21,387 nt of DNA from Spirogloea muscicola (Eukaryota; Streptophyta; Zygnematophyceae; Spirogloeales; Spirogloeaceae), in assembly GCA_009602725.1 (NCBI GenBank), contig WELB01000120.1, forward strand, positions 297,747 through 319,133, read 5' to 3'. The position numbers and the translations under genes were made by a program. This document shows positions 326 through 21,387 of the stretch, in pieces; position 1 is the stretch's first letter; each line of letters begins with the position of its first letter. The notes under the pieces were generated by a model, which did not search any database, was not told the origin of the DNA, and saw only the letters and a program-made list of their open reading frames with translations.

Positions 326-410
326 CCCGCGGGTTTTGAACTTCGTGTGGTTCCGTCATGTCTAGTTGTCTCGATGCCTAGCTAGTGTGTTTCCCTTCTT
401 TTGGATTTTG

Positions 411-1438: not shown

Positions 1439-1440
1439 TT

Positions 1441-1530: not shown

Positions 1531-1770
1531 GTACTGCACCTTCATTCTGGCAGAGCCCTCGCTGCTGCCTCTGGCTCTGGCCAGGGGACCCACTTCCAGG
1601 AGCCTAGCATCTCCGATCTGCGGCTGCTTAGCAAGGTTACTGAGTGACTCGTAGCTGCTTTGTTTCTTTGTGTGCTTGTTTTTCTTAGCGCTTCCCCAGG
1701 CCCCCTTCTCGTACTCTGTTCATTCTTTTTTGGGCTGGCTTTTCAAGCCCCTATCTCAATGGGCGAGCAC
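1531..1770 (+). mobile_element. Retroelement C-terminal tail and 3' end
   Basis: The plus strand reads LHLHSGRALAAASGSGQGTH and ends ISDLRLLSKVTE at a stop near 1647, followed by a 3' UTR that includes GCTTCCCCAGGCCCCCTTCT and a hairpin module ending GGGCGAGCAC at 1770. Positions 1618-1770 match positions 1-143 closely, so the window starts within another copy. Confidence 0.65.
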
Positions 1771-1975
1771 AATTCCGTGTACTAGAAATAGATGTAGGCC
1801 AAATGGCCAAGTACCAAGGCAAGCACATCTAAAGATCTACATAACCTACAGCAGATTGACCCGCTCAATAACCACGGGTCAAAATACCAAGGTCACTAAT
1901 CGATGCATGAATACTAGATGCCAGAAACGGAGCCCTTCTGCCTGAACAATGTATTGGCTTGAATTGGCCTCCCTT
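1771..1975. other. Unassigned AT-richer spacer
   Basis: This sits between two repeat copies. I see no coding pattern, RNA gene or repeat shared with the rest of the window. Confidence 0.5.
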
Positions 1976-2284
1976 TCAATTCATGCGCCCCGCGCGCCTT
2001 CTCTCTCTTCTGACACCAACTAGAGCTCGCCCAGCTTTCTGGTGCAAGGCACTAGCCTGAGCACGCTGCAAACAGGCCGAAACTCGTTGTTGCAACAGCG
2101 CCAGATATGCAGCTGGCAAGCGCATCTCAGCTGGAACCACATCTGCACGTCGAGTGTAGCCTAGAGTGGCAGACGAGCACTTTCTTCTCCTGTTCATACT
2201 CACGACAGAACGGCCACGCGGCGCCACCAGGCGCGGATGTGGAATCAGGAAGATCCGAGCTAAGCATGTCGGTATCGTCGACAC
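1976..2284 (-). pseudogene. Possible C-terminal tail of a second retroelement family
   Basis: The minus-strand frame contains AYLALLQQRVSACLQRAQAS and ALHQKAGRAL, which resembles the LQR...ALHLRAGRAL ending of the other RT fragments but with a different surrounding sequence. No catalytic RT motif is present, so the assignment rests on this short similarity only. Confidence 0.35.
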
Positions 2285-2312
2285 TCCCTGCGATCGGAAG
2301 GCAGCCGAAGGC

Positions 2313-2387
2313 CACGTGGTCAGTAGCCAGCCGACCGGCGGCTAGCATGCACCGACCGGTCACGTGTCCGGTGCCGGACCGCACGTG
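2313..2387. promoter_or_regulatory. Cluster of three CACGTG (G-box/E-box) motifs
   Basis: CACGTG occurs at 2313-2318, 2361-2366 and 2382-2387, and a 14-base palindrome GTCCGGTGCCGGAC sits at 2366-2379. CACGTG is the core bound by bHLH and bZIP factors in plants and algae. No intact gene starts nearby, so this could equally be the 5' region of a lost element. Confidence 0.4.
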
Positions 2388-2500
2388 CCGAGGCAGTGCC
2401 TACGCTCCTGGCCACCGCTGGGGCTTTACAGATTGCGCCCGTATCGTCACTTTGATTTAGGGGCTAGGGGCTTCGGGTCCATCGCCCCTCCGTTAGAAGA

Positions 2501-2631
2501 AAGCGCGGCCAGATGGACTGGTGGCTGGGAAAAGCCAGCCCAAAGAAATGGACAAGGTCTGATGGAGCCGGAGTGCGAAGGACTAGGACTAATAAGACAT
2601 CAGCCAGGGAACGCTCAGTAACCTCTAGTCA
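2501..2631 (+). repeat. Second repeat module (copy 2)
   Basis: It begins AAGCGCGGCCAGATGGACTG, contains the imperfect inverted repeat GGCTGGGAAAAGCCAGCC, then ATGGACAAGGTCTGATGGAG, and ends CTCAGTAACCTCTAGTCA. It matches the copies at 198-325 and 20126-20203, with reverse copies near 3258-3322 and 20583-20642. Confidence 0.8.
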
Positions 2632-2639
2632 GGAGATGC

Positions 2640-2754
2640 AAGTCTGAGTAGCTAGCCGGCGGAAAGACGTCGCCCTGACGGAAGCAGGAGGCCGCCGTCA
2701 AAGCTCGGCCTGCGCGCAAGTGAACCGCAAAGGCAAGGGACCGCTGCATCAAGA
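2640..2754 (-). mobile_element. Retroelement RT C-terminal tail fragment
   Basis: The minus strand reads LMQRSLAFAVHLRAGRAL and ends with SYSDLHLLTR, nearly identical to the tail at 473-600. It is only the last ~38 codons, truncated at its 5' side by the neighbouring element. Confidence 0.65.
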
Positions 2755-2990
2755 AGAGTTGCTCGCCCATAGAGAAGAAAGGCTGGCAAAGCCAGCCCTA
2801 AAAAGCATGGACAATGTCCAAAGCCAAAGAATGAGGAGCCGAAAAAAGAACCACTACAAAACACTGCGAAACATGTCGACGTGATGCAGAGGGAAGCTCT
2901 GAAGCTCAGTACCCACGAGTGAGCAACATCAGGTCGGAGTAGCTCGCTGCAGGGAAAGAAGCACTCCGCCGAGACCCAGAGGCTGTTTAC
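2755..2990 (-). mobile_element. 5'-truncated retroelement 3' end with hairpin tail module
   Basis: The minus strand reads FFPCSELLRPDVAHS, the same tail as the plus-strand fragment ending near 3830. It then runs through the 3' UTR segment to the GGGCTGGC-TTT-GCCAGCC hairpin and the CTATGGGCGAGCA end at about 2760. It abuts another minus-strand tail at 2754 and the plus-strand fragment at about 2996. Confidence 0.6.
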
Positions 2991-2995
2991 CTCAA

Positions 2996-3955
2996 TGATG
3001 CCCGTCCAGCTGGGTGCGGACCGCCAGCTCCATGCCCAACGCGCCGACCTGGTCGCCATCCCGCCCGGCGGTCGTCCCCCCGTCATCGCCGATGTGGTGT
3101 CCCTCACTAGAGGTTACTAAGAGTCAGCACCTCTTTCTTTGGCTTTGAACATTGTCCATTCTTTTTGGGTTGGCTTTGCCAGCCCCTCTTCTCAATGGGC
3201 GAGCACCTTCTTCCCCTTGCTGTTGTCTTAGTATTTAGCAGTCCGGCTTCTACTTAAGACCTTGTCCATTTCTGTGGGCTGGCGTCTCCCAGCCACCTGT
3301 CAATCTGGCCGCGCTTTCTTCCAAGGTGGTTCAGTGCACTCTGTTGCGGACTAGAGCACCTTCAGGCTCCTCTGGACTTTGTCCATCCCTTTCTGGGATG
3401 TGGTGACAACTCAGTGCGTCGACTCCGCCAATCTCGCCAGATCGGCGTCGACTGCAGGGCAGGGCACGCAGTCGGCCTGGCGGCTCGGGGCAAGGAGCGC
3501 AAATATGCGGATCACCCGGTTGGTGATGAATTCGCGGCCCTGGCGACGGATGTACACGGGGCTTTCGGCTGGATCTCCTCCAGCGGCTTGCTCGTCAGGC
3601 CATTGACCGGCGGCCTGGTCTGCCAGGGGCGATGCCCGGCTTCAACGCCGCCGGTTCGCTCGCCCAGGTCTTCCGAATGCGCCAGGCGGTCTCGTTCCAA
3701 CGCTCCCCAGCCTACGCCGTCCACACGCGAGCAGGCCGTGCTATGGCTGCTGCCTCTGGGTCTCGGCGGAAAGGCCTCTTTCCCTGCAGCGAGCTACTCT
3801 GACTTGATGTTGCTCACTCGCGGGTACTGAGAACTCCTCTGTATCGTCTCGTTTTTTGTAGTGTAGTCCTTTTTCGGCACCATTTTCTTTTGGCGTTGGA
3901 CATTTTTGGGCTGGCTTTGCCAGCCCCTCTTCTCTATGGGCGAGCACTTTCCTCT
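2996..3955 (+). mobile_element. Decayed non-LTR-like retroelement: RT polyprotein C-terminus plus 3' end, interrupted by an insertion
   Basis: The plus strand encodes DRQLHAQRADLVAIPPGG then VIADVV up to 3099, and continues after an inserted segment with DVVTTQCVDSANLARSAS from 3397. In shifted frames come GKERKYADHPVGDEFAALAT and FNAAGSLAQVFRMRQAVSFQ (about 3645-3705). The end is GRAMAAASGSRR and a Ser-Glu-Leu-Leu tail near 3800. The pattern of RADL, IADV and a C-terminal LQR/LH helix is what I know from the ends of non-LTR retrotransposon ORF2 proteins in algae. The 3' end (3840-3955) carries GTAGTGTAGTCCTTTTT, the hairpin module and a (CTT)-like tail. Several frameshifts show it is dead, and the 5' part is missing. 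Confidence 0.65.
3100..3396. mobile_element. 297-bp composite insertion inside the RT fragment, flanked by 9-bp target-site duplication
   Basis: GATGTGGTG occurs at 3091-3099 and again at 3397-3405. Removing one copy and the material between restores the continuous frame VIADVVTTQCVDSAN. The insert holds a forward tail module with hairpin (3125-3213) followed by a reverse copy of the second repeat module (about 3258-3322), so it is either composite or a nested pair. Confidence 0.7.
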
Positions 3956-4149
3956 TTCTTCTGTTACGCCTCCACCTTCCTAAACATGATAGATCAACAT
4001 ATTATTGTATGTGCATGTCAATGTCCTGGCAGCCAGCGCAGGCCACTGCCTTGCACCTCTATCCGAGCCTCGGATTAGCTGCTGCATGTCATGCTCTTCC
4101 CCGGGGGCCTGCTATTCTGCATCAAGCCGTCCGACCCCTATTTGCCGAC

Positions 4150-4508
4150 TGCCAGCTAGTCAGCTCGCACACTAATCGCTTGCTTGTCACCTACGGCTTC
4201 TCCATTGAGGCCTCTCGGGCTGGTCATCACTGCCAGTGCCCTCCTGTGGATTTCCTCGTCAGCAGTTGCAAGCCTGACAATCAGCACCTCCTTGGTGTAC
4301 GCCCCTTTAGCCTTTGCAGGAGCTTCTGATCGAGATCCTCGCCTTCCCCATGCTCTTCAAAGCCCGGTTGGGTGGGTGTTATGGGACACTGCATAATCTG
4401 CTCCAGTTGCTGTGTCAACTTCCTCTCTACACTCTTGACTTAGAAGCTCCTCAATCTGCGTGTAAATTGCTAATGGCTGGCCACTCCTTGCCTCTAGCCT
4501 CTAAATGA
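4150..4508 (-). pseudogene. Possible decayed coding stretch, unknown origin
   Basis: On the minus strand three adjacent frames are protein-like in turn. First comes SGQPLAIYTQIEELLSQECR with its continuation (stop near 4375), then PGFEEHGEGEDLDQKLLQR, then AKGAYTKEVLIVRLATADEE continuing to a stop near 4155. The changes of frame suggest a broken gene or an unrecognised set of small exons. No ATG start is evident and I recognise no family. It may be a remnant of a transposable element, given the repeat field beside it. Confidence 0.3.
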
Positions 4509-4810
4509 GCCACTCTTGTGCATGCAGCCAGGACGTGCCTGCGTTCAGGTGTGAGCCGAAATCCGGTGGAAGGGTGTAAAGTACAGGTATCTGGATTTAG
4601 GAGTTTAGGCAAGGCATGCAGAGCTGGCTAGCCGCAGCTACCCCTACCCAGCTGCATTCTTAACGGCAGGCAACCGCCTGACCTTTGTGTGTGACACCTT
4701 GCTGATGACGCTGGCCATGCTCAGAAGCCTCTTGACGGCATCCTAGAACCCCACAGCGATGTGCACGCCAGCAGATTGGTGCATAGGCATTCATACATGC
4801 AAACACATGC

Positions 4811-4849
4811 GCAGATAACTGGGAGCAGATAACTGGGAGCAGATAACTG
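4811..4849. repeat. 14-bp minisatellite, about 2.8 copies
   Basis: The unit GCAGATAACTGGGA occurs at 4811-4824 and 4825-4838, with a partial third copy at 4839-4849; all are identical where they overlap. It lies in otherwise featureless sequence. Confidence 0.9.
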
Positions 4850-5304
4850 CGCAGGCGTAACACAAGCAAAACATGCTGTCGGGGTCAGGCCTGTTAATAT
4901 ACAGCCCTGTGCAGCGAAGATCCTCCTGCAACTTGCATGCCCCACCCCTTGGGGGCATCCAGTTTCTCCAATTGGTGGCCACCAGATCATGCCTCCTTGC
5001 CGGCCTCTCTCTGCCCTATTTCCTTTTCCTTGGGACTTGATATTAAGAGCATTAGTCAAATTGTTTAGGTGTGCTCGCACATACGGTACAATAGAGGCTT
5101 GCTAATACAGGAAACGCAAACTAATCTAGTAGACGCCGGTGCAGGCCCCTTGCAGATAAGCTTGCTGAACTCCTGCTGATTGAGATGCTTTCTGAAATTA
5201 CAGAGAGACGGCGTTTCAAGTGCTAGTGCACCAAGGAGATATGCAACCTAGTCCCGCTTGCACGTTGATTTGCTGAGTGGCCACAGCTGTACTGAACCTG
5301 ATCT

Positions 5305-5620: not shown

Positions 5621-5911
5621 AGTCCTCAACTTGAGAAGGTGTACACTTGCCCAAGTCATGTCACTATTGTGACAGTAGGCAGAGTGTCCTCCTCTGAAGC
5701 AGACAAGCGTGCCCCATCGTTTCTGCGATCTGGCAGAACAAAGCCGGGCAGCTTAGGCGAAGGGTTCTCAACCACACCACAACAGTGAGATTACGGCGAC
5801 CAAGACAAGCTCTCAACTGCTCAGACGAATTTGTGACTAGGGGTCAGGAGCCCGTCAGCAATGAAGTGCTGGAGTCTACATTGCAGCTCTCCACTTTGAC
5901 ATGAGGTGCCA

Positions 5912-8900
5912 TCATGCAAGTTCGATGCAATTCACAGAATTGTGACAGATCAGGGCGTCTGATATCATCGTCAAGTAAACTGGGTGAGAGTCAGACACAC
6001 CTCCCCATCCAGGAACTGAGGATTTACTCTCTTTAATAGATCCCAATATCCCGCTGAGAGCTGGCTTTATCTTGCCAACAGGAAGGGGTGCCGACATACT
6101 CCGTTGAAGTGTGGCAATCATACCACTTGACTGAGCTGGTGTTGGGTGGTGGGTGCGGTCATGCCACATGTTGTTTGTTGATAGGCGGAGCTTCGACATA
6201 GGCCCTGAAAAGAGTGGGGATCTGTCACGTGCCTTGTGCACACTGACAGTGGGTGTTTCGTGTCCCTGAAACAAACAGGACATGCCTCATAAGCTGCCAA
6301 TATGTGGACCCAAAGCCAAGGGAAACAGCAGATTGGCGCAATCAGAAAATATATAGTGTCAAGCATATGCTTCATATGCAAATGCTGAGCGGAAAATCGC
6401 TGACGACCCCTGCAGCACATAAATAGAGCAGGCATGTGGATGGACTGGGGCCATGACAAGCCAACACACTATTCAAGCAGGGCAGTGGAGGTGCAAAGTA
6501 TGCGACTAAACAAAGCGAAAGAAGGACGTAAGCATGACCAAGAGTTGAGACCGCGCCTCAGAGGTAGCTGGCAGCCAATATGTCCGACCAAGGCAACGAG
6601 CTCAAGCTGTTCTTACAGTTGAGGCCCCCCATTGGCCCCTCAATACAACAATGCTGTAAGCCTTGCGACACCACACACTCAATGTTTTGCATAGCTGATC
6701 CAGCCTGTAACCAATGTAGGCTTCAATGCGTAACCCTACCTCAGGGTCTTCCAACCACACACGCTCGAGGTCACTGGCAGATACTGGAGCCGCAGTCGTG
6801 GCAATTCTGAGCCCTGACTGGCTCCGGTGTGTCTCAAAAGGGAGACACCAGAAGGATGACACTGTCTTGGCCATTTGATGAAAAGTCACCTGATTCACAA
6901 GTAGTGTCCATGGTCATGATTCTTGCCTTGATACCATGCACCAGGAGCATTCCCATTAGAACACCACTTAGATCCATACTTGCTTCACAGATAGCCAATC
7001 AGTAAGCAACGCAGATTACATCATGGAATGCAGCAGTGCATTGTGCTGTGCCACTTTCATGCTGTTAAAAACAATCACACGAGCTGACCAGGAAAGCGAT
7101 GTAGCGCTGCAAAGAAAGGAAGCGATTCTCGAGAAAAGCCTCCATGGGAGATTGAGCTTCAAGTATCTTCTGAACATCCACGTCAAATGCTTGCAGCACC
7201 CGGCTTCTGCTTGCAGGATCCTCAGCCTCTCCCTCCACCACCTGATAAGTGCCATGGGACAGAATTTCCATCTGCACCATGTGTTGAAGGCCAGATTAGA
7301 TTGTGCAAATCCATGCTCATTTTCCTTGCCGATATGCGGCAAGTCAAGCCCGACGCTCTGTAATTGCACCACACACAAGTCCGAGTCCGACAAATACGTG
7401 GACGCGAAGAAAGCACAGAACTTGAAGACCAGATGCCGACGCTTTTGCAGTGGCTTGATATGCGAGCTCACATATATCGTACTTCCATGCAGAAAGAGGT
7501 CTGAACTTTAAGTAACATACCCCAATCTTGAATGCTTGCTGCATGTAAGCCTCCTTCAGGACATGATCGCCTACAACCTGGCTGTTAATGCCAACAAAGA
7601 CACTGTGTCTCCCTGTTGCAGCAGCCTGCCTTTGTGATGCTAGTCTTTTCATCTGCCACACAATCTCTTCTGAAGCTGTCAGTCAGCTCGCTGAAATAGG
7701 ATTTAGTATATAGTCGGACTAAGACTGAAAGTGCTTGTCTGCAGCAGCAGCCAGAGTTGTGTGTCAGTGTACTGTTGTCATTGTCTGTCAGGTACTTGAC
7801 AATTGATGATTGCATGGCTTGACATTATTGTTCAAATTTCAAATACTTCCGGAAATAGCAGTGCAGGCCAAAAGCTTGGATACCGTTGGTGTGCACACCT
7901 GTCATGTCATGGAATTGTATACTATGTCATCCTTACCGGGTCTTGCTCATGCACGTTGAGGAGCTGCTCGCAGAGAAAGTTGGGCCTCCCAGACGGAAGC
8001 GTCACGTGGTTGTCGATCAAAAGTTTGTCAGTAAAAGGATTGTGACCTGTGCCACATCCAGAAGGTCCAGGTGAGATGTCTACAAGCCTCTGCCTCCATG
8101 ATTGTACAACAAGCCACGTAGGGAGAGTGGACAGCTCGGCTGATCTTAAGTTACCTGTGAGGCCTACATGCTCTGACTGACAGGATGCACGCAAATACGT
8201 GACAAATAGTACTTACCAACTGTGAAAGTCTCAGCACCTACTCCCAAATGGACGATGCTCTTTGCCTGCAGGATTGCCAGCAGCACCCAGGACTCGCCTA
8301 CAGAAACAACAGAAGCTGGTGAGCATGTCACTTGTCTTCAGGCACTGGCTCTGGTAGTTTACTCTAAGCGTCAAGGCTCCCTCAACCTCACCAGCCTCTA
8401 TAGATCAGATATGAGCATTAAATAGGGTCAAACGTAGGCAGACTTGTGTCAAAGTACAGGAACTGGTGACGTCAAATTACTCGGCTGCTCGTGTCTATTA
8501 CCAGAAAAAGCCACACGCGCTTTCTTTACCGCCTAGCCGATTAAAAGCAACTCGACGATCACGGGTGGCGCCTCTAATTGCCAGCTCCTCACAGAACGTG
8601 TTCTTCTTGAGTAGAGCAGCCCTTACACTTTGTCTGACTGCAAAGTCGGCCATCTGGCCGACCGACGGCTAAGAGTACCCCGCGTGTCACGCGATGTGTG
8701 AATCGATGCACAAGGTGGTCGATTGGGTTGGCTCCGTGGACCTCAATGGTTGCTATGGAGTAGCTCAAGGCAAACTGCCACATGGCAAGCATTTGATTGA
8801 GCAGATTGGCAAAGGAGGCCAGGCACATATGCCAAGCTGTCAACAATGCAAATCTCTACTGCTTGACATGTATAGCAGAAAAGGAGAAACTACTGATACG

Positions 8901-9605
8901 AGGTTTGAAGCACTGAGGTCCTTGTCAATTTGTCGCTTGGAGGCTCTGAACTTTCTTCTGAGACATCTGGGTGTCTTAGTAATGCCTTGACAGATTGGAT
9001 GAAGATGTGCACTGTACCAGCTTGGAGACATATATCTCCAAGAGTTGGTGAACATAAGGCACATCGCAGATGACCAAGGTGCGCTTTCCTATCCTAGCGA
9101 AGAGCTTCCTCCTCTGGAGCAAGCGCAAGATGATGGTGCACCAGAGTGGGATGAGTATGTAGATCAAGGTGTCCATCACGCGCTGGAAGGGAGTAACTAT
9201 TGCTTTGGTCTGGCCATCTGCATAGAAAGAGCAGTCACATGCACCAGAGCCCGGAGTATGAGGTGCACAAGTATCTCGAGGGACTTGAAGTCACACTCTT
9301 GCTGATCAGACTTGCCCATGTGACTGGCTCTTTGAGGTATTTATATACATGAGGTGACAGACTGTGTAAAGAAAGTGTAGGACAACTGGAGGCGCATAAT
9401 GGCTGAAGAGGCTAATCCTTCAACTAGCACTGCACGCAATGTAGCAAAGCGCAACAAGCTGATAGGCATTTGAGGGCCTCTTACGAGCATGGGTCCAGCG
9501 AAGAACAAGGTGAAGCAGCCCGCCATTTAAGATACCAACAGTAATGATGATGTACACAGCACCCATTATCCACACCACTGCTCCTTCAATGACATGTCGG
9601 CCCCA
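5912..9605 (-). other. Membrane-associated C-terminal half and Ser/Pro-rich tail (exons 29-37)
   Basis: Exon 29 encodes a hydrophobic helix (VVWIMGAVYIIITVGILNG), and exon 30 a second one (MDTLIYILIPLWCTIILRLL) followed by a basic patch and GKRTLVICDVPYVHQLLE. Exon 31 contains VHGANPIDHLVHRFTHR and LLAVGRPDG; exon 33 has SPGPSGCGTGHNPFTDKLL and exon 34 SVFVGINSQVVGDHVLKEAY. I cannot assign these motif-like stretches to a named family. Exon 36 ends RSQSGLRIATTAAP, and exon 37 is a 117-residue Ser/Pro/Lys-rich tail that looks disordered and may be phosphorylated. The junction between 7377 and 7241 is uncertain: another frame is open from about 7471 to 7285, and other acceptors would also fit. 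The final exon begins after a clear TTTGTTTCAG acceptor. Confidence 0.75.
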
Positions 9606-12600
9606 CTGGAGAGCACAAGCCCATGCACGATTACTATTGCACTGTATTTTCTTCTATGCTGTTTCTGTCTATGTTAGTGACCACAACATAAGCAAGCGTA
9701 ATCTTCAGTTTCTAGCAGAGGACCTCTTCGCAGCAGACCACATTCGGTCAGATATTGTGAAATGCAGACCTTTCTATACACACAGCCCCGATGCATGGTA
9801 AGTCACCAACCTGACGACCCTGTTTGACAAGCTGCAAATGCACCGGCGCTGAGCAGCTCCTACCGTCAGTAGATCGACCTACTAGCTCTGGTGCGCCATC
9901 ACTCACAAACTCGTCTCTGACCTGTAATAAGTGAGAGCATCAGCATCCATTGCTTCGCCCCGGTGACTTACTCATTAGACTTACTCATTGTTCATATTAA
10001 CTCATAAGGTGACTGCCTTGTTTCTTAATAAGGGCAGCCACCTGCGATGCTTGACAATTAGGGTCAAACATACACATGGCATAGGCAGCAGCAGCAATGC
10101 CTGCGCCCCTGTCACAAGTGCAACTTTGACCAACAGCAGCCTACAAGCAGCACAAAGCTTGAGATTATCAAGGAGATACTCTGTGCAGATCCTCAATATC
10201 TTTCCGGGAGAACCGCAAGCCAAGTGGGCCAGCCTCTTTTCCTGCATGTATAGATGCACAGGCCGATTACAATTATGAATGAACTTGCAATAGGATTGAT
10301 TGTACTCCTGGGCTTGTGCAACCAATGAGCAGTTGTAACTGACAGATGAAATGGTAAGATGTTGTAATTACCCATGTCAATAACAAGGCCATCGTTATTC
10401 TCGAAAACTTCTCCACTCTTCCTCGTTGCAAGATTCTTTCCCAAGAAGAGCATGAGCTCGGTCAGTGTATGATGTGCTGCTACTGCAGTTACTGTTGCTG
10501 GCTCTGCGGACCGCCAACTGGACACAACATGATCATTAGGAAGCGAGCAAAGGTACTGCACCATTCCAGCTCTGGAAGACTGTAAGCGAGGAAGTTTCTA
10601 AACTGGACGATGCTAAGTACCTCAAAATACTTTGATCTATAAGCAGATAATTACCAGTGACTTCAGTCGGCAATACAGCAATGCCATGCCAGTTAGTAAA
10701 CTCACATGACGACAATGATCCAGCAAAATTGAACCTCATTCTGCTAACCATTTCGCTCAAGCAAATGACTTCTCTCAACCGTTTCACAAGAAATTGGCTT
10801 ACAGTTTTTCTGAACATAAGAGACATTGACGTACCTAGCACATGTCCACAGCACTCGGCAGGACCATGGATCACCAGCACCAAAAGTTTGGCCAACAGCA
10901 GCTGACATCTTGCTGTCTATGATTCCAACGCAGACAAACACTCTCCTGGAGAGTAATATGTAACATCAGGTGTCAAGACAGATCAGTCAAGAGGAACAAG
11001 AGAATTGACATCTCAGAAAGACATTTGGCAAGATCACCTATGAAGAGTCCACAGAGTCACTCAATCCTTCCAGTCACAACTTGCTTACTGCAAAACAGCA
11101 GGAAGGTTTCCTGCTAGCTCTACTTCAGGACTCGTCAATCAAAGCTTTCCTGCCAGGGGGATATGAGATACATAGTCTGGCTTAAGGGTTTGGTTCACTT
11201 TGAGGTTGTGGTTGAGATTGAGACAGAGCAAGTTACCCAGGGCACTCCTTGAGAAGTACACGTGTTGCATGAAGTGTGGGGAATGTTTGCCCTGATTGAC
11301 TGATGCACAGCACGATTGCCTTGCGCAAGGAGCTTGTTACCTGGCAAAGTAATCAAGAGCAGTAATAAGTGTACCCACCACTCACCCATAAAGCAGAATG
11401 TCGATGCCGACAAATGAACCTCATGCATGGGGCATGGCTTGACAGCGGGTTGAGATATAGCAGCACATCATAAGGTCAACTGCAGAAAATCTCAAGGTTT
11501 TGAAGCAGACCCCCTGCATCCGGCCAATGGCAATACGATTCAAGGAATCGAAGTAGACCTGGCAGAAGCTGAATCCAGCTGTTGAGATTGCGCCTCTCAC
11601 GTTACCGAGGATCCCAATAACTTTATTTGCAGAGATGGGCACGACCTTCAATACTGGAAAGACTGGCGCATGAAATAACTTATATAAATGCGGAGCACCG
11701 AACAGAACGTGAAAGTCAAACTGCTACACTGCAACATAATTCTGATATATACGTGCCATGAGCAGGAAGTGCCTGTCGTGGAGCAACTATAGCTTACAAT
11801 TCTGCAGGTCAGATGCGAATTGCTCCCCAACCCAGAGGCTGGATTCCACTCCCACGATCAGTACATCTACTTCACTGGCCTGAGTTGCATTGCTGCCTTT
11901 CTTCTCCTCCACCTTCTCCTGCCAGATATGTCGATTCAATCCGTGAGCCGCAGGAAGCCTGTATTGCCTTCGACTGTTAATATATTAAGCTGTAGTCGAT
12001 CGGTCCCTTGCGTAGGTCTGATATGAACTAGGTGGTATCACTATGTTGCAGTGGCCAGTATGTCCATGTTACAAGATATCTCTATCACCCACACAGGTCA
12101 TGCACAAGTGCTTCTTTTGCTTCACGACCATTGGCCATGTCTAACTTAAACCCAGTGTTTTCCAATGCATGCAGTGCAATCCTCAAAAGCATGATAGCTA
12201 TGGTAGTGCTTACACCTTGAGCAGCTTGAGGAAAGCTGCTGCCGTTTGAGCATTGCAAGAATGTGGTGTTGACCACTCCCTCTGTATATTTGCGAGTACC
12301 CTTGGGATGTCCTGCAAGCAGGGGGCTATGCAAGACTGTGTGAGCGAATGGAAGGTCTCAGGTATGGATCATCCACGTCGAGATGGAGCAGCACGTCATA
12401 TGTATGGCATGACAACCAGCTGAACTCTGCATTTGCAGGAAGGCCTCACTTTGCGCACCTTGATGTCTTGATCAACAATGTCACCATTCTGGGGAGGTCC
12501 AGAAGATGGAATGTATGCATTGCCCTCCAGTGACACCAGCCTCCCGCTTGAGAAGAACTCTGCCTGTTGAGCACAACATCATATATTGATAAAACTCGTA

Positions 12601-15600
12601 TGAGCAGTATAAGTTATTTGCAAGCTCACGGGATGGTAGGCCTGCAACTATTAGCTAGACAATAACATTGTGGTTCTCTGTCATACATTCAGATATTCAA
12701 TATTCAAGATCGCATTTTGTAGTCGAAAGAAGGTCAATGCCACAATCATTAACCACTGTCATATGAGGGTCAATCGCAGGGCTGGGAACGTACAGGAGTC
12801 ACCGGAGACTGACTAGCGTGCTTGAAGAGGCGAAGTTGGACATAAGGGTTATCTGGAAATGGACATATTTGTGCCAGCCGGATGTCTTCCAATTGATAAA
12901 TGGACTCACTTCTTCGAAGCTCCACTGCTACAGATGATGCGCTGGCACAATATAATACAAGAGGAAAGAAAGGGTGCTCTCAGTATCAAGAACATAAAGC
13001 GGTAAGAATCGAGGATGACAGGGAGACGGGACGGGCTTACCTGCTGTCAGTCCGAGCTATACGGCTGTTGTTTGACTTCCGAGCTGAGGTTGGCGGTACT
13101 GCAAAGAGATTTGGCAGCTGTATCTTCTGGTAGCTGTTCAGCCGGCCAACACCCTTACCGGCAAAGAACTTGCCCCACGGCCGCAAAGCAGACACACCTG
13201 GGGATCCTGCTACCTCTGGCCCATCTTTCATGACTGGAAGAGGGTCCACGCCATGCGCCCTGTAGTGTTCATTGAACCGGCTGTTGTCAGACCCCTTATC
13301 GGATGAGTCACCGAGAGGTACGATCTGGACGGCTTCCTCTCCAACAGCTTGCCTTGGCCCAGCGATTGAAGCAGATGTAGGATCTGTGTTGACCTCCTCT
13401 GGCAGCCCACTCTGCCATGCTCGGCGAGCTTGATTCAACTGGTCGCTTGCTTGCAGGTGGACGCCTGTCTTGACCTCAAATAACGGTTTGAAGACTTCGC
13501 TTATCTTGATGGCTGACGGTGGAGCCAAGATCACCTCTAGGACCTCCCCGTCCTCCTCGTTAAGCTCTAGCCTGCAGCTTGCACCACGTTCTGCATTCGA
13601 TCCCTTACTGACAAGGGGAACCCTGAGAGCATGGGTCTCAGAAGAGTACATCACCGCAGATAGATCAGGACAGAATGCTATGGACAGTGGCTGATTCAAA
13701 GCGGCTAAAATGACACGGTCTGGGTCCAGCGTGCACGTGACGGCCAGTCCAAAGGAACCCTGTCAGTCCACTTTTCATATGTCAGATGGTGCACAGTAGC
13801 AGGATGTCACTTTTATACTACTGATAGGCCCTGGCAACTCAGAACTATTCCGGCAGATTTATTTGCAAAAGCATGTGACAGTGCCACAGCACAGCTGCTT
13901 GTCAACGGACTCAAATGACTGCCCCCCCAAGCCAAGCTCTACAATCACTACCTAGCACAGAGCTGCTGGACTTGTCCATACAATCAAATAGATGCATAGC
14001 CTCAGAATTACAGGGATCTGCTTGCATCTCCAATCATGTTGCTTATACCTTAGCACTTGCAAGGAATTTTCGAGTTGCATAAAATAGGTCATTGTTCCGG
14101 AAGTTGATGACAGATTGTTTCACAAATTGACTTAAGGTCGTATCGTCCATCAGCTCAATCAGATGTTTATGCCTGGGAAGTTAGTGCCAGTGAAATGCAA
14201 GTCAGTAGTCTAAAGTCAGAAGGGCAACACTCAATCATATTGCTACATATGCCAAGCTTCCCGGACTTGCAGGCATGTGCTAGCAAGGACCACTACGATC
14301 CCTGGAGGACTTGCTTAAGCAGTCTTACCTCTTAGGGGCTCTCCTCTCAAGCATTGGGCTGGCCTCCTTTCGTAGTGCATGCATGAGGGAGGTAATTAAT
14401 TCAGCCTCGTTCTCAAATGTACAGAAAGATCCAGGTGCAGATGCAGGAGAGTCTGAACGCCATGGTCCAACATGCTGTGGATAGTTGTGGCCACCGGTTG
14501 TTGGGGAGCAGGATTCTGCAGGTGAGTTGAAACCTCGCATGCTTGACTCTATGCTGTCTTCTAAGTTGATCCGTCGCAATGTCTTGGAGCTCCTCAAAAA
14601 ACTTGTGAAGGTTGTCTCAAATGTGCTAGCTAGAATCTGCAGGACCTCTCGGCCAGGTGCCTGCTGACACCAACACTTCATAGGTTAGCATCAGATGATG
14701 CTAAGCGGTCATAATTCCAACCTCAAGATGCTATTATAGTGTCTGATTTACTCCAGTAATCTAATAGATCCAGATGATGAAAAGCGGCAGCAATTTCAAC
14801 CACAAATTGCTAATCACTTGACCAGGTTAGTTGAGTTACATCACATGCCCTCACTAGGCTGTGTACTACTTGCAAAAGGTCCAGCTTTGTCAGCGGCTGG
14901 CAATATTACTAAAGCAGCTCCATACAGTCAAGCACAGCCTGACATGCTCGTGTCCTTGTAGTGCAGTCTACATACTACTCCCAGTCATGGTGAGAGGGTT
15001 TGCTTACTTGGCTGGTATGATGGCCGACTTGAGCCTGGTCAAACATTTCCTCAAAGGAGAATGCAACTGTCTGTTACAGATAATACATGCCATCTTAGTA
15101 TGCATGATCTTATTCCTTTGGCATAGCTTCTGTGACATCGGCAGCTAGCCAAGATACCAAATGCTGACAAAAGCCAAGAAAAGCATCAAAAGCAGCAAAG
15201 AGCTTGTCGGGCAAGGAGTAAGGACGAAGTAGAAAGTCCAGGATATAGATTAGCATTGTCACATACTGACACTCAGAGCATTTTTAATGAGAGGATTCTC
15301 TGCAATGCTTACAGAACCACGGACCCACTGTAATCTAGTCAAGCAGGATGCACACAAGAGCAGAACCATCACAAAATGCATTCCAGCTTGTCATTCCTGA
15401 ACTTATGCACCTGGATATAGGCCAAGCGTAATGAGTGCAACCAGAGTCCCTGTGTGCGGAGGAGCTCTAGTAGTCCAGCTATACTGGTGCTGTCGCATGT
15501 CGCTGGCTGGGGGTATCCTAAAACCCTCTGTTACAGTGAGAGCGACCTGTCAAATTTCCATCAGTATATGAACCTCATGTTGATTGCATGCTGGCGGCCG

Positions 15601-18600
15601 AGCAGGGCTTAATGGCAGAAACTCAAGAATGTCGTCAAGCAGGCTGCTACTCTGAGCAGTCAGTCGCACTACTTGAGCAAGTATTAGCTAGCATCAGTCA
15701 TGCTTACCTCCAACCAAGCCCCAATTTCTGCATGTGTGCGATCTCGCCCATACAAGTTCCAGTACTCAAAGTCGCCATTGTGGGTAACATAGAGTCCAAA
15801 ATTTTCAGAGCGGCCATGTACCACTTGATGACTGGTTGGAATCTCGGCACGCCACACTTTCACAGGCCTTGTTGGGGTCCACTGATGGGGATGTGTCTCT
15901 CTAGGAGAAGGGATGCTTGAGGTTGCACTGCCAGTCCGCAACATGGACGTGGTTACTATCAGGGGCTGTCGGACAGTATGAGTACGCAGTCAAACAGTCT
16001 CAAACGACTGACAAGTGCATGGTAATTGTGCATAGGGCCGGCTTACAAGGGCAAAGTAAGCTTCCTGAACCACCTTGCATTAACATAAGGGAAGAATAGC
16101 TACTGGTGTCAACATGAGCATATGTCACAGCTACACGGGAAGAAGCTGTTCAAGCAAGCCATTATCGAGGTCAATGTGGACAAAGGGATCAATCCCGACG
16201 GGAAGATTGTGGAGCCTATGTTAAACATTCTCTAAGTGACATACAAGCGAGTGTGGCCCACAAAGAGAGCAGGTAGATCTTCCATCGCTTTCCCTCGAGA
16301 CCAAATGCTCGCAGCCCAGAGCCAGACTTTGGCAAAGAACAATTTGTAAGAGAACCACGTCAAAAGCTGTGGAGAGCCATGGCAAAAACATTCAGCTTCA
16401 ATACCCAGTTACAGAAATCTACTAGCAAGCCTTACGTAAAAGCACGTACTAAAAGATGACACTCCCTCGCCTGACCTTAGGTTTAACACTTTGCATGACT
16501 CTTCCTGGCTTCAGCATAGACAATCTAAATGCAGGACCAGCAAGGTAGCCTAGGCCCAACAAATACGGCGATTGCAGGCTTCTTCGTGCACCTGACTGAC
16601 TTTGGCGTTGACCATGAGCAGAGTAAGTCAGGATCTGGGCATGCAAGGCAGATCTCCTCTAGATGCATACCTCATTGGACGCTAGCACTGCACAGCTCAC
16701 AGCGATACTCGCTGGTGAGCCCTGTCAAGGATGATGAAAAAGACACTCTACTTGACATACGTGACATCAGAAATGTCATTTTGGTTTGCAACTCACTGTA
16801 TATGAGACAGAAGCACGCTTCGTTGAGGGAACCACCCTTGTGCAAACATCTTTTACATTATTGCCTGCTGAGAGAAACGTCACCAGGCCACCTGACTGAC
16901 CTCCTCGCTGCATACTGATGCTGGCCATGGCCTCCACGATCTTCAAAGGTCTCAGCCTCTGCAGCCTGGTAGGTGACGAAGAGGAATGCGGCTGCTGTTA
17001 TCAAAGAGCGGCTGTAGATGACAGAGGAGCACTAGCTGCTTTAGCTGCCGCAGGAAGCTGAGCTAGTTGTGCCACTCTGCTCATGTGCGACAGATTTTTC
17101 ATTTGTGCTCTCCACTCCCTGATATCGCAGCTCCCTGATGTATGGGATGGACAGCAAGTCTTTTATGAGGCTTACACAAGGACAAGCAAGCACTGGTGGC
17201 AATAGCCTGTGCTAAAATCTGCTCATGTGAGGTACAAGCAGGTCTAGTACCTGCTTAGCTTGCAATTTGCCAGGAGGAGACCGAAGTTGCCGCAAAAGTA
17301 GGTGTCACTTGTAGGTATTCCTAGCAGAGGCCCAACAATATCTGTTGCAAAAGCTCCCAAAACGCACATGCAGCTTCCCTGCGCACGACATTATTGCATG
17401 CATGCAGGGGCAAATTTTGACTCAGATTCCTGCTCAGACAGCAAGAGATGCTCCATGGTAGTCAGCTCTCCTGGATGGTATCTTCAGGCATAGCACGTCC
17501 AAGCCACGAGTAATTACCAATGTGAAGCTCTTTGCAAGTTCACGTATCATTGATGTTTCTGCATGCAGGCAGAGGGTCAATCGTCATTTCTAACTCCATC
17601 AATATCTGTCTCTTAGCTGTAGATTCGTTGACAACGTGATGACTGGTCACAGTCATTGAGGTCTGTATGACATAGTCAGCAGGAAGCAAGAAGCATGTCA
17701 CATGCACAGACAACTTTCACAGCAACAATGTCAGTGTATGCATGCTCAGCTTGTGAGCTGAACACACATTGCTGGCTTTCAAGTCGGAGTCTGTGAATCA
17801 GTCATATTGTCCGCGACCTTTCGAGGGCTGCAGGATCCATGTTGTTGAAGCAGCTGCAGAGAACACCATACTGCAGGCGACAACAGAACCTGGGTGAGAA
17901 ATTGCAACCTGCAGTTTGAAAACTGTTGAATAGGTATGTCAATTGAACTTCCAAAGAACAGACTTGTAACAGTTACCAGCAAGCATGGCGCCAACGAAGC
18001 CACTTCTTGTGTACAAGCAGACATAGATTGCAGCATTCTGGGCTTTGAACCTGCTGAGAGTGTAAAGCTCGAAGCACAGTCTTTCAACGCCAAGACTCTA
18101 ACTTGTGCCTTCAGACGTAGATAATGGTCAGGACAGATTGCAGCTTCTCAAGACCCTGGCACACCAGGTCTATTTGACTCACCTGGTCAGCCATCCGCTG
18201 AGATGGATAATTGCATCCTCAGAGCTCAACAAACGGCAAGTCTTGATCCCGCAGCTACTGAACAGGTGCTGGCTTGTGTCTGAAGCACTAGTGAAACGAC
18301 GCTTGGATGTGCTGCCCTTCGCTTTTAGAACGTAGGGCTGAAGTGCAGCGAGCTTGGTCGAGAGAGGCGAAAGGCTTGCCCACCAGGACAGAGCTGGAAC
18401 GTAGCACGGCAGTGGCATATCAGCTGAGAGCTAGTGTTGCGTTGTTGAGTCAACGACGCAAGACTTGAGTAGCTTTGTCATGTGTCAAAGTAAACAGTGA
18501 GCAATGTTTTGTCTCATGGACTTCACTTCGTCTTTCTAATGCAGGGTAAATCTGTACTAGCTGCTTAAGCACATTCCCTGCCTCTTGCATAGCTGAAAAG

Positions 18601-19533
18601 GTCTTGCTGTCAAATAGCTGAGGACCTCTGTGAATCCTTACTCTGTGCCTACTGTGACTATCTTCGGTTTACATTGTCACTCAAGAGAAGAACGTGAACC
18701 TGGTCTTGTACCGCACCTGGTACATTGCCCCGCAGGTTTGAGAGAGTGATGAAATCGGAAGGAGACCCAAGCAGGGCTCCTGATGCAACATGGCTGCACT
18801 CATGAAGCAGCATGGCGAGCACCATGCCAGCGCGGAATGCCACAGCGATAGCAAGCTCGACCAAGAGGCAGTGTAGAACTTCAGTAAACACCTGCAGCAG
18901 ACGGATGAAGTCTCTCTCAGAAGGCGGCCAATATCTTGTCGGTGAAGCTACACATCACCATTAGCCCCTACATAACTGCCTATCGATTTAGCGGTTCTTT
19001 CTCCTGCTGGGGCTTCGCATGTAGCTAAGCATTTGAGGTCATGCTTGGCAATGATCAATGCCACATGGTGTTGAAGTTGGCTGCGCGCTGAATGAGTCAC
19101 TCGGGGGGCATCTGGTAGTGAATACGTCCAGGGTGTCGGTCATATGGCCGAGAGCCAATGACTACAGCCTACAAATTGGTCATGGCCGCTGATCTGGACG
19201 AACGAGTCGTGCTCTGAGGACGAGCAGCAGATCGTCGGCACTGAGCCCTCATATCCGGGAGGGAAAGGAGGGGGATGGAGGTTGAGTATATACAACATGA
19301 AGCTGCGTTGCTGGACTGATCAGTGCAGGTGGCTCCTCCGAGACGCCTAATGGACTGAGGAGCTGAAGAACGAGCGAGGCTCTTAAGTGTGGCGTCCTCA
19401 CCTCGCCTGTTGAGGAGAGCTGCAGGCTGCTGCCCCCGCCAGCACCAAGTGCGCGGCAGAGGCCGGCGAGCGCCGGGCCCAGCAACGGCGGCACGCCGGG
19501 GACGACGGCCAGGAGGTGCAGAAGTAGCGCCAT
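5912..19533 (-). CDS. Large membrane protein: HExxH region, class II glutamine amidotransferase, SIS domain, TM C-terminus (37 exons)
   Basis: One split gene, read on the minus strand. Exons in transcript order: 19533-19402, 18891-18717, 18423-18183, 18050-17977, 17889-17818, 17616-17544, 17373-17251, 16965-16797, 16721-16671, 16366-16245, 15927-15708, 15527-15411, 15265-15158, 15070-15008, 14660-14329, 14172-14049, 13759-13063, 12927-12794, 12563-12459, 12311-12216, 12144-12095, 11973-11798, 11653-11559, 11340-11237, 10945-10835, 10517-10372, 10241-10180, 9921-9811, 9605-9485, 9217-9018, 8774-8627, 8297-8217, 8154-7937, 7664-7377, 7241-7089, 6889-6740, 6265-5912. All junctions use GT-AG and the phases agree, giving about 1,931 residues ending in TGA at 5912. 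The order GATase then SIS is that of GFAT-type sugar aminotransferases, but the membrane parts and the HExxH region are not. Least certain are the start, the 51-nt exon at 16671-16721, the exon at 12095-12144, the junction 13063/12927, and the junction 7377/7241. I do not recognise a named gene; a role in amino-sugar or glutamine-dependent chemistry at a membrane is inference. Confidence 0.88.
9811..12927 (-). other. SIS (sugar isomerase) domain (exons 18-28)
   Basis: After a linker (exons 18-20, with SGRLVSLEGNAYIPSSG and DIPRVLANIQREW), exon 22 carries VDVLIVGVESSLWVGEQFAS, the first SIS strand and GxxS phosphate loop. Exon 23 carries VVPISANKVIGILGNVRG. Exon 24 has AIVLCISQSGQTFPTLHATR, the canonical SQSGxT loop that binds the sugar phosphate. 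Exon 25 (VFVCVGIIDSKMSAAVGQT) and exon 26 (TVTAVAAHHTLTELMLFLG) occupy the places of the NxxGSxLxRxxD and STKAxTxQ segments. That is one complete SIS domain. GFAT has two, and I do not find a second: the chain runs through DIEDLHR and DGAPELVG straight into the membrane region. Sugar-phosphate binding is known for the family; the ligand here is unknown. Confidence 0.83.
14692..14812. repeat. Two imperfect ~42-bp direct repeats within an intron
   Basis: Units at 14692-14733 and 14771-14812 both begin CAGATGATG, share AAGCGG and continue through a TTCAACC-type segment to a TTGCTA/ATGCTA end. The spacing is 79 bases. They lie in the intron upstream of host exon 15, and no function is apparent. 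Confidence 0.55.
16122..16235 (+). CDS. Small open frame, sense-opposite, inside an intron of the GATase-SIS gene
   Basis: A 37-codon frame, ATG at 16122 to TAA at 16233, on the strand opposite to the host gene, within the intron between host exons 10 and 11. Its residues look strongly protein-like for its size: HGKKLFKQAIIEVNV, then DKGINPDGKIVEPMLNIL to the stop. The frame is open for a further 12 codons upstream. The bases just before position 16131 read TATGTCACAG, a plausible splice acceptor, so this may be a terminal exon or the remnant of one instead of a complete gene. I do not recognise the parent protein and see no matching upstream exon within the window. It ends only 10 bases from host exon 10, so chance antisense openness is possible. 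Confidence 0.4.
   Translation: MSQLHGKKLFKQAIIEVNVDKGINPDGKIVEPMLNIL
17544..19533 (-). other. N-terminal membrane region with HECSH motif (exons 1-6)
   Basis: Exons 1-6 encode roughly residues 1-255. Exon 1 is rich in Leu, Ala, Pro and Gly and hydrophobic. Exon 2 contains AMLLHECSHVASGALLG (about residues 70-86), where HECSH fits the HExxH zinc-site pattern inside a hydrophobic helix, as in site-2-type (M50) proteases. It is followed by LSNLRGNVP. Exons 4 and 5 encode another hydrophobic stretch (RSGFVGAMLAGSVVACSMVF) that looks like a transmembrane segment. I do not see the distal Asp motif (LDG or NxxPxxxxD type) expected in M50 enzymes, so protease activity is unproven. The Met at 19533 is the first in-frame ATG of the open stretch, but the frame stays open upstream to a stop near 19636, so an upstream exon or an indel is possible. 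Confidence 0.7.
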
Positions 19534-19900
19534 GGCCGCCGCGTCGCGGCGTGCCGCGGCGGGCCTTGCGAGCCCGTGGTGTGTGCGCACGATCAGCCTC
19601 AGCTGCTCGAGCACGGAGGCGGCATGCGCCCGCCTCGAGAGCCTCTAGCCGTCGGGGCTTCTTCACGCCGCCATGAGTGACAGAGAGCCCGGCGGCGGCG
19701 GCGGGCGCGGCGGCGGCGACGGCGGCGGCGCCTGGCGGCGGAGCTCGAGCTCCGAAGCTCACGCGGGAACTCGTCAACGTCCGCCCTCCCCCTCCCTCCT
19801 CAGTCCGCCCTCCTCCCTCCCTCCCCTCTCCCCTCTCCCGGCGATTGTCGTCGTTTCTGCGGCGTCGTGTCAGCCTCTAAGGGCTTGTCCTGGCCGACCG
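19534..19900 (-). promoter_or_regulatory. GC-rich 5' flank / candidate promoter and leader of the GATase-SIS gene
   Basis: GC content rises sharply just upstream of the first confident exon. It includes a CGG/GGC-rich trinucleotide run at 19690-19731 and an almost pure pyrimidine run on the plus strand at 19782-19840. On the minus strand a separate frame starting at 19777 is open through about 19680-19620 (SSRVSFGARAPPPGAA, then Ala-rich) and could be an N-terminal leader, but it is in a different frame from exon 1. No TATA-like box stands out. Placement of the promoter here is inferred from position only. Confidence 0.4.
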
Positions 19901-20035
19901 GCATTCGGGCATTAATTACTCTTAATCAAATGGCGACCTCTACGGGCTGGCTCGTGCTTACTAAGCGGGTCAGCTTGGCTGCCGGTCATGTACATCTGTC
20001 AATGCCTCCGTCATCTGGCCCCTTCGAACCTTTGT

Positions 20036-20095
20036 CGATTCTTTTCGGGCTGGCTTTTCACAGCCCTTGCCCCCATTGGGCGTGCACTTCTTCAT
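20036..20095 (+). repeat. Hairpin tail module copy
   Basis: TTCTTTTCGGGCTGGC, a short loop, then CAGCCCTTGCC and ATTGGGCGTGCACTTCTTC: a diverged copy that marks the right boundary of the repeat-free gene region. Confidence 0.7.
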
Positions 20096-20125
20096 TAGGA
20101 GAAGAAGAGCTCGCCCATAGAGAGG

Positions 20126-20203
20126 AAGCGCGGCCAAATTAACTGGTGGCTGGGAAAGGCCAGCCCAAAAGAATGGACAAGGTCTGAAGGAGCCGGAGTG
20201 CGG
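20126..20203 (+). repeat. Second repeat module (copy 3, 3'-truncated)
   Basis: GAAGCGCGGCCAAATTAACT, GGCTGGGAAAGGCCAGCC and ATGGACAAGGTCTGAAGGAG are present. It stops at GGAGTGCGG, where another element begins. A reversed fragment of the hairpin module (CTCGCCCATAGAGAGG) precedes it at about 20110. Confidence 0.75.
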
Positions 20204-20206
20204 AGT

Positions 20207-20320
20207 TCTCTGTGTGCTTGTTTTTCTTAGCGCTTCCCCTGGCCCCTTCTCGTACTCTGTTCATTCGTTTTTGGGCTGGCTATTCCAGCCCCTATTCTCA
20301 ATGGTCGAGCACTTTCTTCT
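20207..20320 (+). mobile_element. Retroelement 3' end, 5'-truncated
   Basis: TGTGTGCTTGTTTTTCTTAG, GCTTCCCCTGGCCCC and GGGCTGGC...CCAGCCCC followed by GAGCACTTTCTTCTG match 1660-1770 and 45-143. Confidence 0.7.
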
Positions 20321-20324
20321 GAAG

Positions 20325-20460
20325 GACATCAGCCAGGGAACGCTCAGTAACCTCTAGTCATAGAGAAGAGGGGCTGGCAACCCAAAAGAGAAAGTGCTCT
20401 CCCATTGAGGAATTAAACCCAAAAAGTACTACTCAGACTTGCATCTCCTGACTAGAAGGT
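20325..20460. repeat. Nested fragments of both repeat modules
   Basis: A forward end of the second module (ACATCAGCCAGGGAACGCTC, AGTAACCTCTAGTCA) is joined to a reversed hairpin module (ATAGAGAAGAGGGGCTGGC) and a reversed RT-tail end (ACTCAGACTTGCATCTCCTG). Confidence 0.65.
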
Positions 20461-20475
20461 TACTGAGGGTTCTCT

Positions 20476-20557
20476 GGCCCCCTTCTCGTACTCTGTTCAT
20501 TCTTTTTCGGGCTGGTTGTTCCAGCCCCTATTCTCAATGGGCGAGCACTTTCTTCTC
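20476..20557 (+). repeat. Hairpin tail module copy
   Basis: TGGCCCCCTTCTCGTACTCT, then GGGCTGG-TTGTT-CCAGCCC and CAATGGGCGAGCACTTTCTT. It is almost identical to positions 70-150. Confidence 0.8.
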
Positions 20558-20582
20558 TGGCGTCCTAGTCTTTCGCATTCCG

Positions 20583-20642
20583 GCTCCTTCAGACCCATTC
20601 CTTTGGGCTTTTCCCAGCCACTAGTCAATCTGGCCGCGCTTC
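20583..20642 (-). repeat. Second repeat module, reverse copy
   Basis: The plus strand reads GACCCATTCCTTTGGGCTTT, then CCCAGCCACTAGTCAATCTG and GCCGCGCTTCC, the reverse of copies 1-3. Confidence 0.75.
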
Positions 20643-20689
20643 CTAGGACTACATTGGGAGAGCCACTTCTGCTTTGTCTTCGTACTTCT

Positions 20690-20920
20690 TCCCTTCTCTT
20701 TGCCCTTTCTTCCTGCTCCGAGTTACTCTGATCTGCTGTTGCTCACACGTGGATACTGAGCAGCCATCTGCATCTCCCTCTGCACCATCTTGCACTTTGT
20801 AGTGTAGTCCTTTTTCAGCACCTCTTTCTTTGGCTTTGAACATTTTCCATTCTTTTTGGGTTGGCTTTGCCAGCCCCTTTTCTCAATGGGCGAGCACCTT
20901 CTTTCTTCTGGGCGAGCTCA
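20690..20920 (+). mobile_element. Retroelement RT tail and 3' end
   Basis: A diverged Ser-Glu-Leu-Leu tail (TCCGAGTTACTCTGATC) leads into the same 3' UTR seen at 1000-1124 (GCACTTTGTAGTGTAGTCC), the hairpin GGGTTGGC-TTT-GCCAGCCC, and CAATGGGCGAGCACCTTCTT. It is the best-preserved 3' end in the window. Confidence 0.7.
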
Positions 20921-20983
20921 TCTTTCTTCTTGCGTACTTGGCCACTCCGGCCCTTCGAACCAAATACACAGGAGTTGAGAAAC

Positions 20984-21387
20984 GTTACCCTCACCGGCAA
21001 CAATGAGGCCCCCCGCAGGCGCCGCCGGCGCGGAGGGCGCATAGCGCCACGTGGTTTCATACCATGCGGCCCGGATGACACCCGCCCCGGTCGGCCCGGT
21101 TGACCGGCGCTGCCCAGCGCCGACCTGGCCGCCGCCAGTGGCCGCCACCGGCGGATTCCTTCGAATCGCGGATCATCCGCGGGAAGACGAGTTCTTCCCG
21201 TTGGCCATCGACACACATGGGGCGCTGGGCGCTCGGTGGCTCGAGCTGCTCACCCAGCTCGCCCGCCACACCCGGCGCTTCCATGGGGAGCCGGTTGACT
21301 TCCCTGCAGCCGGGTCGCTGGCGCAAGTGTATCGAATGCGCCTGGCCGTCTCGCTGCAGAGGTCCATGGCCCGGGCGCTGCACCTTC
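20984..21387 (+). mobile_element. Retroelement RT polyprotein C-terminal region, cut by window end
   Basis: From about 21135 one plus-strand frame stays open to the end of the window and reads GGFLRIADHPREDEFFPLAI, DTHGALGARWLELLTQLARH, then AAGSLAQVYRMRLAVSLQRS and MARALH. It is the cleanest copy of the family whose decayed forms lie at 462-740 and 3480-3800. The upstream part (20984-21130) is very GC-rich and its frame is not clear. The element continues beyond the window. Confidence 0.65.

Follow-up and report, generated by a model that had tools for sequence, protein, structure and literature searches.

Class II glutamine amidotransferases (GATases) are defined by a set of key residues, among which the nucleophile is an obligate N-terminal cysteine. 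In enzymes of the GPRAT or PurF type the GATase is followed by a phosphoribosyltransferase domain, while in the sugar-phosphate enzymes of the GmhA, KdsD and MurQ types each chain has a single SIS domain bearing an SxSG-type loop, and neither a GATase nor a membrane region. Other SIS enzymes form their active site between subunits and a lone SIS domain is no defect per se. GFAT-1 is described as having the N-terminal nucleophile (Ntn) fold and an isomerase domain of two SIS sub-domains, the isomerase domains of both subunits in the dimer contributing to the fructose-6-phosphate site (PMC7000685). For plant GPRAT2 the shedding of an N-terminal propeptide, which exposes Cys87, has been described (PMC7056826). 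A gene predicted in a 21,387-nucleotide stretch of the Spirogloea muscicola genome (contig WELB01000120.1, positions 297,747 to 319,133; hereafter the window) combines features of these systems, with a GATase and one SIS domain set between a hydrophobic N-terminal region and a C-terminal half containing predicted membrane helices. The reading tentatively favoured here is that it encodes a membrane-anchored, GFAT-derived, glutamine-dependent sugar-phosphate enzyme that may be activated by cleavage before Cys210.

An earlier note on the window had proposed a single polypeptide combining an HExxH membrane region, a complete class II GATase, one SIS domain and a membrane C-terminus. The minus strand contains numerous short open stretches, and a splice model built on two aligned copies of the gene, in which codon use, substitution type and splice sites were scored, placed on it a coding region that starts with the ATG at 19533, ends at about 5900-5656 and contains the named motifs in frame in both intact copies. 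The model has 38 exons encoding 1650 amino acids and 37 introns of 56-510 nt (Table 1); the donor after GHTRF was placed by hand from GATase homology. Its score was 321 without the manual bonus, as against -0.8 or less in 6 of 6 column shuffles, while the plus-strand control scored 57.6, or 102 (510 codons in 22 exons) after retraining of the codon table on that strand. The proposal is borne out in the main as regards the coding region and its two intact copies, several small exons and the last two being uncertain; a single transcript is predicted over the region, and the small exons and the 3' end of the model may change. A three-frame Pfam scan of the raw minus strand, with stops as X, returned 0 families because the exons are short.

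The second copy was found on contig C250. When pieces joined by eye served as protein queries against the whole genome, all 40 matches at E <=0.001 fell in the window and C250 loci, which match exon by exon in identical order. The two copies share 87.7% nucleotide identity over a 15,162-column alignment, and the C250 protein (1648 aa) is open throughout the model. Over the exons, changes were found at 142 of 1191 synonymous and 110 of 3750 nonsynonymous sites, with 2 single changes that are stops when scored base by base and 3 gapped codons left out. The resulting ratio of nonsynonymous to synonymous change (pN/pS) is 0.25, a value that leans low because the substitution pattern guided the choice of exons, the shuffles being the fairer control. 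Intron divergence between the copies is 0.134, and the identical exons read one base off gave a ratio of 1.66. On these comparisons the exons are under purifying selection between the copies. When examined by part, leaving out residues 412-437 and 1156-1188 with their doubtful exons, pN/pS was 0.52 in the N-terminal membrane region, 0.26 and 0.24 in the GATase halves, 0.54 in the linker, 0.07 in the SIS region, 0.40 in the helix region, 0.05 in the C-terminal domain and 0.63 in the tail. The copies are collinear through the gene and collinearity ends just past its 5' end, beyond which (11,554 and 11,600 bases) no BLAST match between them was found at E 1e-3. They may be alleles or paralogs. 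Matches of similar score also occur in pairs or triples on separate contigs for FtsH-type M41, light-harvesting and GFAT-like SIS families, a pattern that resembles two haplotypes or a duplicated genome.

The GATase (residues 210-694) begins CGNFGLL and continues through QRGGQSGG, GHTRFATSS, HPHQW, VTHNGDF, TCDS and GSFGLAV. The class II set is present in order in both copies as Cys210 (CGxxG), HTR 335-337, His350 (HPH), HNG 387-389 and Asp442; Cys210, HTR 335-337, His350, Asn388-Gly389 and Asp442 fall at the places of GlmS Cys1, R73, H86, N98-G99 and D123. GlmS models were the sole significant matches in NCBIfam, with an E of 2e-6 on the model as spliced, and of 1.3e-9 and 2.1e-8 on a tidied join from which doubtful exons and inserts had been removed. 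Custom hidden Markov models (HMMs) made from 10 GlmS proteins, which replaced profile-profile comparison and were controlled by 200 shuffles, gave 22.1 bits for the GATase as against 0.6 or less in the shuffles. Collinear pieces corresponded to GlmS 69-90 and 139-184 in the GATase and to 88-137 of the SIS1 model. PHROG 13807 (function unknown, 609 positions) matched at E 2.2e-5 and a PHROG named for the glutamine-fructose-6-phosphate enzyme at E 0.073. The largest exon, in which the GATase ends, has 0 stops in the coding frame and 13 and 11 in the other two minus-strand frames.

In both copies Cys210 lies 8 residues past hydrophobic segment 184-202, in the same exon and with no adjacent Met, and a cut at 209/210 would therefore be needed if the GATase is active. 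By analogy, GPRAT2 offers a precedent for a cut that exposes a GATase cysteine; here the cut may be autocatalytic, or made by another protease or by the HECSH region described below.

The SIS domain (residues 902-1155) contains ISQSGQT at residues 1064-1070, a loop that points to a sugar phosphate as ligand, and the custom SIS1 HMM scored 10.6 bits, whereas none of the 200 shuffles exceeded 4.0. The custom HMM for SIS2 of GlmS found no match in either copy. At the level of sequence, then, the GFAT-like order of GATase and SIS and the absence of a second SIS domain, both put forward in the earlier note, held up. The lone SIS might find its partner in another chain, or else in the C-terminal domain.

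What occupies the place of SIS2 proved to be more than the membrane segments and loose motifs seen earlier. Membrane segments are indeed predicted there, but the description of a membrane C-terminus was imprecise, as helices 1233-1251 and 1281-1299 precede a 234-residue and probably soluble domain (residues 1308-1541, from the end of exon 9217-9018 and the five exons in 7089..8774). A third hydrophobic segment, 1166-1184, depends on a doubtful exon. With 5 changes at 537 nonsynonymous sites and 33 at 165 synonymous sites, this domain is the most constrained part of the protein, and since it and the SIS region are the most constrained of all, the area of the "missing SIS2" is not filler. Searches of Pfam, NCBIfam, PHROG and PDB gave no significant family match for it, the best Pfam match in the C-terminal half being DUF4013 (E 0.67) over the membrane part. 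A hidden SIS2 was not matched by profile-profile comparison or HMM, a diverged SIS2 fold being still conceivable. Residues 1308-1541 are thus best described as a putative uncharacterised domain.

In the N-terminal region (residues 1-209), Kyte-Doolittle hydropathy with a 19-residue window gave hydrophobic segments at 1-19, 52-70, 137-155 and 184-202. The HExxH membrane region of the earlier note was recovered as HECSH at residues 74-78, shortly after segment 52-70. The likeness to Peptidase_M50B and other site-2-type membrane metalloproteases is that an HExxH adjoins one hydrophobic segment and an Asp lies in another further along the chain (ATDIVG, residues 192-197, within segment 184-202). 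The Pfam M50B model (PF13398) gave a weak match (E 0.092) confined to a 41-aa piece, but none on longer spliced pieces and none genome-wide. M50B was rejected as a firm identity, the match being a weak fragment and HECSH alone being no proof. It is quite unlikely that the N-terminal region is a membrane metalloprotease in one chain with its own substrate, its HExxH site (or one on a partner chain) cleaving just ahead of Cys210 at the membrane face and thereby turning on the glutaminase. If true, the protein would be a glutamine-dependent sugar-phosphate enzyme with its own intramembrane activator and a new C-terminal domain replacing SIS2.

Of the described systems GlmS/GFAT (NF001484, TIGR01135) is shared in the order of class II GATase and SIS, in the GHTR, HPH, HNG, Asp and GSFGLAV block and in the SQSGxT loop. 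The predicted protein differs in its internal Cys, in the membrane regions on both sides, in large inserts, in the lack of a detected SIS2 and in its different C-terminal domain. GFAT proper was ruled out by the family cut-off and the lack of a detectable SIS2, the two GlmS models having scored 37.0 and 33.2 bits against cut-offs of 381 and 418.05. With GPRAT it shares a class II GATase and perhaps the exposure of Cys by propeptide removal, as described for GPRAT in PMC7056826, but here SIS, helices and the uncharacterised domain follow, the N-terminal part is 209 residues long with hydrophobic segments, and no PurF-type model matched in the Pfam or NCBIfam searches. With the GmhA, KdsD and MurQ types it shares a single SIS with an SxSG-type loop, and differs from them in its GATase and membrane regions. 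No relatives were found in any of five scans of viral contigs or two of prokaryote genomes, made with a few short peptide patterns, which can miss distant ones; at E up to 10 there were records from plasmids (3) and phages (1), with best E of 3 and 0.9, of which one in four is annotated glmS. That the protein is a GATase-SIS variant associated with a membrane, and new to the prokaryotic, viral and family-model libraries searched here, is partly supported.

On the favoured reading, one gene would encode a divergent GlmS/GFAT-lineage protein anchored in a membrane, into which its hydrophobic N-terminal region would insert. After a cut between Phe209 and Cys210, Cys210 would serve as N-terminal nucleophile in a class II (Ntn) glutaminase, which would hydrolyse glutamine and pass the ammonia to a phosphorylated sugar on the single SIS. 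The SIS active site would take its remaining part from a second subunit, from the conserved C-terminal domain standing in for SIS2, or from both, and the helices of the C-terminal half would hold the mature enzyme on the membrane. The more general suggestion of the earlier note, that of a membrane-bound, glutamine-dependent enzyme or sensor with a sugar phosphate as its target, may hold.

A number of observations weigh against this reading. Pfam gave no GATase or SIS match on pieces of the locus, and genome searches with GATase_6 and PF01380 did not list it; in five queries against PDB every match was at chance level (best E 0.26) and none was to a GATase or SIS chain. Profile-profile comparison aligned the GATase in the wrong register (Probab 0.12) and gave SIS1 a low value (Probab 5.47, E 0.002). 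The SIS match is weak on its own (E 0.019 against TIGR01135), and in the full-length GlmS HMM the SIS piece scored 5.8 bits, with 6.4 for the best shuffle piece. GlmS Trp74 and His77 are replaced by Phe338 and Ser341, and the N-terminal membrane region and linker are mildly constrained (0.52 and 0.54). GFAT-like loci elsewhere in the genome (C2, C126 and C316), each matched twice by SIS and once by GATase_6, mean that glucosamine 6-phosphate synthesis needs no second enzyme. Both the substrate and the cleavage are putative. The earlier note had named the lack of any GATase or SIS profile hit as refuting it; such hits were absent from Pfam, whereas the full-length GlmS models, one PHROG and the custom HMMs matched. 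Here more weight is given to the match with the GlmS models and to the unbroken order of the motifs than to the Pfam negative. The earlier claim of a complete GATase rests on its key residues and the GlmS models, and that of one SIS domain on ISQSGQT and the SIS1 HMM, in both cases against the Pfam result.

The main rival, which is somewhat unlikely, holds that the protein is a membrane sensor or scaffold in which GATase and SIS bind glutamine and sugar phosphate and signal via the C-terminal domain, synthase activity being slight or absent. The failure to find SIS2, the C-terminal domain being the most constrained part, and the GFAT loci elsewhere, which would make a synthase redundant, are all in its favour, but both copies retain the GATase catalytic residues, which a pure sensor would not need. 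It is quite unlikely that two or more neighbouring genes have been read as one, e.g. one for a membrane protein, one for a GATase-SIS protein and a third for a C-terminal membrane protein. The model forces a single chain, and doubtful small exons lie at the junctions in the N-terminal part and the middle of the protein; however, exon 17378-17251 joins a hydrophobic segment to CGNFG, exon 9217-9018 joins a helix to the C-terminal domain, and both copies keep the order of parts. In addition the largest intron is 510 nt, leaving little room for separate promoters and ends.

An ordinary unannotated algal family with GFAT-like activity, already present in eukaryotic databases as, for example, a 'SIS domain-containing protein', is an unlikely explanation, although the divergence of the copies and the strong constraint point to an established gene and not a young fusion, and the earlier note likewise expected algal relatives. 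Against it, no named family beyond GlmS-type models was matched in Pfam, NCBIfam and PHROG. Chance motifs or a pseudogene might be suspected from the short exons, the weak profile scores and the chained model that the retrained plus strand also gave, but this is highly improbable given the difference between the minus-strand score and its column shuffles, the overall pN/pS, the GATase HMM score relative to 200 shuffles and the fact that both copies are open throughout.

Table 1. Features of the predicted gene and its second copy; positions are those of the window unless a contig is given
Feature	Position	Strand	Basis and remarks
Whole gene model	5656..19533	-	Comparative splice model on two copies; stop 5656, or 5912 as in the earlier note; 3' end uncertain
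Exon 1 (residues 1-44), with the start codon and the first hydrophobic segment	19402..19533	-	Splice model, hydropathy
Exon 2: hydrophobic segment 52-70, then HECSH (18790-18804)	18717..18891	-	Splice model, hydropathy
Four small exons 18279-18183, 18002-17977, 17889-17818, 17558-17518, with segment 137-155	17518..18279	-	Splice model; 26-nt (18002-17977) and 41-nt (17558-17518) exons doubtful
Exon joining segment 184-202 (ATDIVG) to CGNFG; candidate catalytic Cys210, codon 17292-17294	17251..17378	-	Splice model; same in C250
GATase exon with QRGGQSGG (residue 243 on)	16797..16965	-	Splice model
Doubtful 51-nt exon within GATase	16671..16721	-	Splice model
GATase exon ending GHTRF (HTR 335-337)	16245..16366	-	Donor CTT/GTATGT set by hand
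GATase exon ATSS...HPHQW...VTHNGDFEYW; HNGD 15771-15782	15708..15927	-	Splice model, HMM
Doubtful 78-nt exon	15574..15651	-	Splice model; poor donor GAG/GTTCAT
GATase exon PATCDSTSIAGLLELL (Asp442)	15411..15506	-	Splice model
Four exons 15070-15008, 14660-14534, 14452-14329, 14172-14049: insert and start of GATase second half	14049..15070	-	Splice model
Largest exon: GATase end (GSFGLAV... to EVLEVILA), then variable linker	13041..13759	-	Start aligns to GlmS 139-184
Linker exon	12803..12941	-	Splice model
SIS exons 12563-12459, 12335-12216, 11918-11798 (VGVESS), 11662-11559 (PISANKVIG), 11340-11237 (ISQSGQT)	11237..12563	-	Splice model, HMM; pN/pS 0.07
SIS end: exons 10945-10835, 10517-10372 (AAHHTLTELMLFLGK)	10372..10945	-	Splice model
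Doubtful exon; alternative 10241-10180 (KEAGPLGLRFSRKDIEDLHR), picked in first model run	10074..10123	-	Splice model
Helix exons 9921-9811, 9605-9485, 9217-9018: segments 1233-1251, 1281-1299, then GKRTLVICDVPYVHQ	9018..9921	-	Splice model, hydropathy
C-terminal domain exons 8774-8627, 8297-8217, 8046-7937, 7625-7521, 7271-7089 (GANPIDHLVHRFTHR, VGRPDG, GHNPF, VFVGINSQ)	7089..8774	-	pN/pS 0.05
Tail exons 6889-6740, 6265-6124, 5693-5656	5656..6889	-	Splice model; last two uncertain
Second intact gene copy	C250:1918-16937		Alignment to window

The window is contained in a 153 Mb assembly of 471 contigs, in which the light-harvesting family PF00504 was found in 68 places among the matches listed genome-wide, exon by exon, as in a photosynthetic eukaryote; the label "alga" fits the source. 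The flanks of the gene (1-4000 and 19900-21387) are a mixture of dispersed repeats with a short hairpin-like unit (GGGCTGGCTTTGCCAGCCCC...ATGGGCGAGCAC), which in 1-5000 occurs in both orientations at irregular spacing and in the right flank was seen by eye and in matches to C250. A perfect 14-base tandem repeat of 2.8 copies lies at 4811-4849.

If the predicted protein is one chain, amino-sugar type chemistry that is soluble in GFAT would be relocated to the membrane, and a GATase nucleophile would be freed only by a cut adjoining a membrane helix. The locus would also provide an entry point to a strongly constrained C-terminal domain, one for which the searched libraries yielded no family match. 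The main prediction, which is directly testable, is that the mature protein would have its N-terminus at Cys210.

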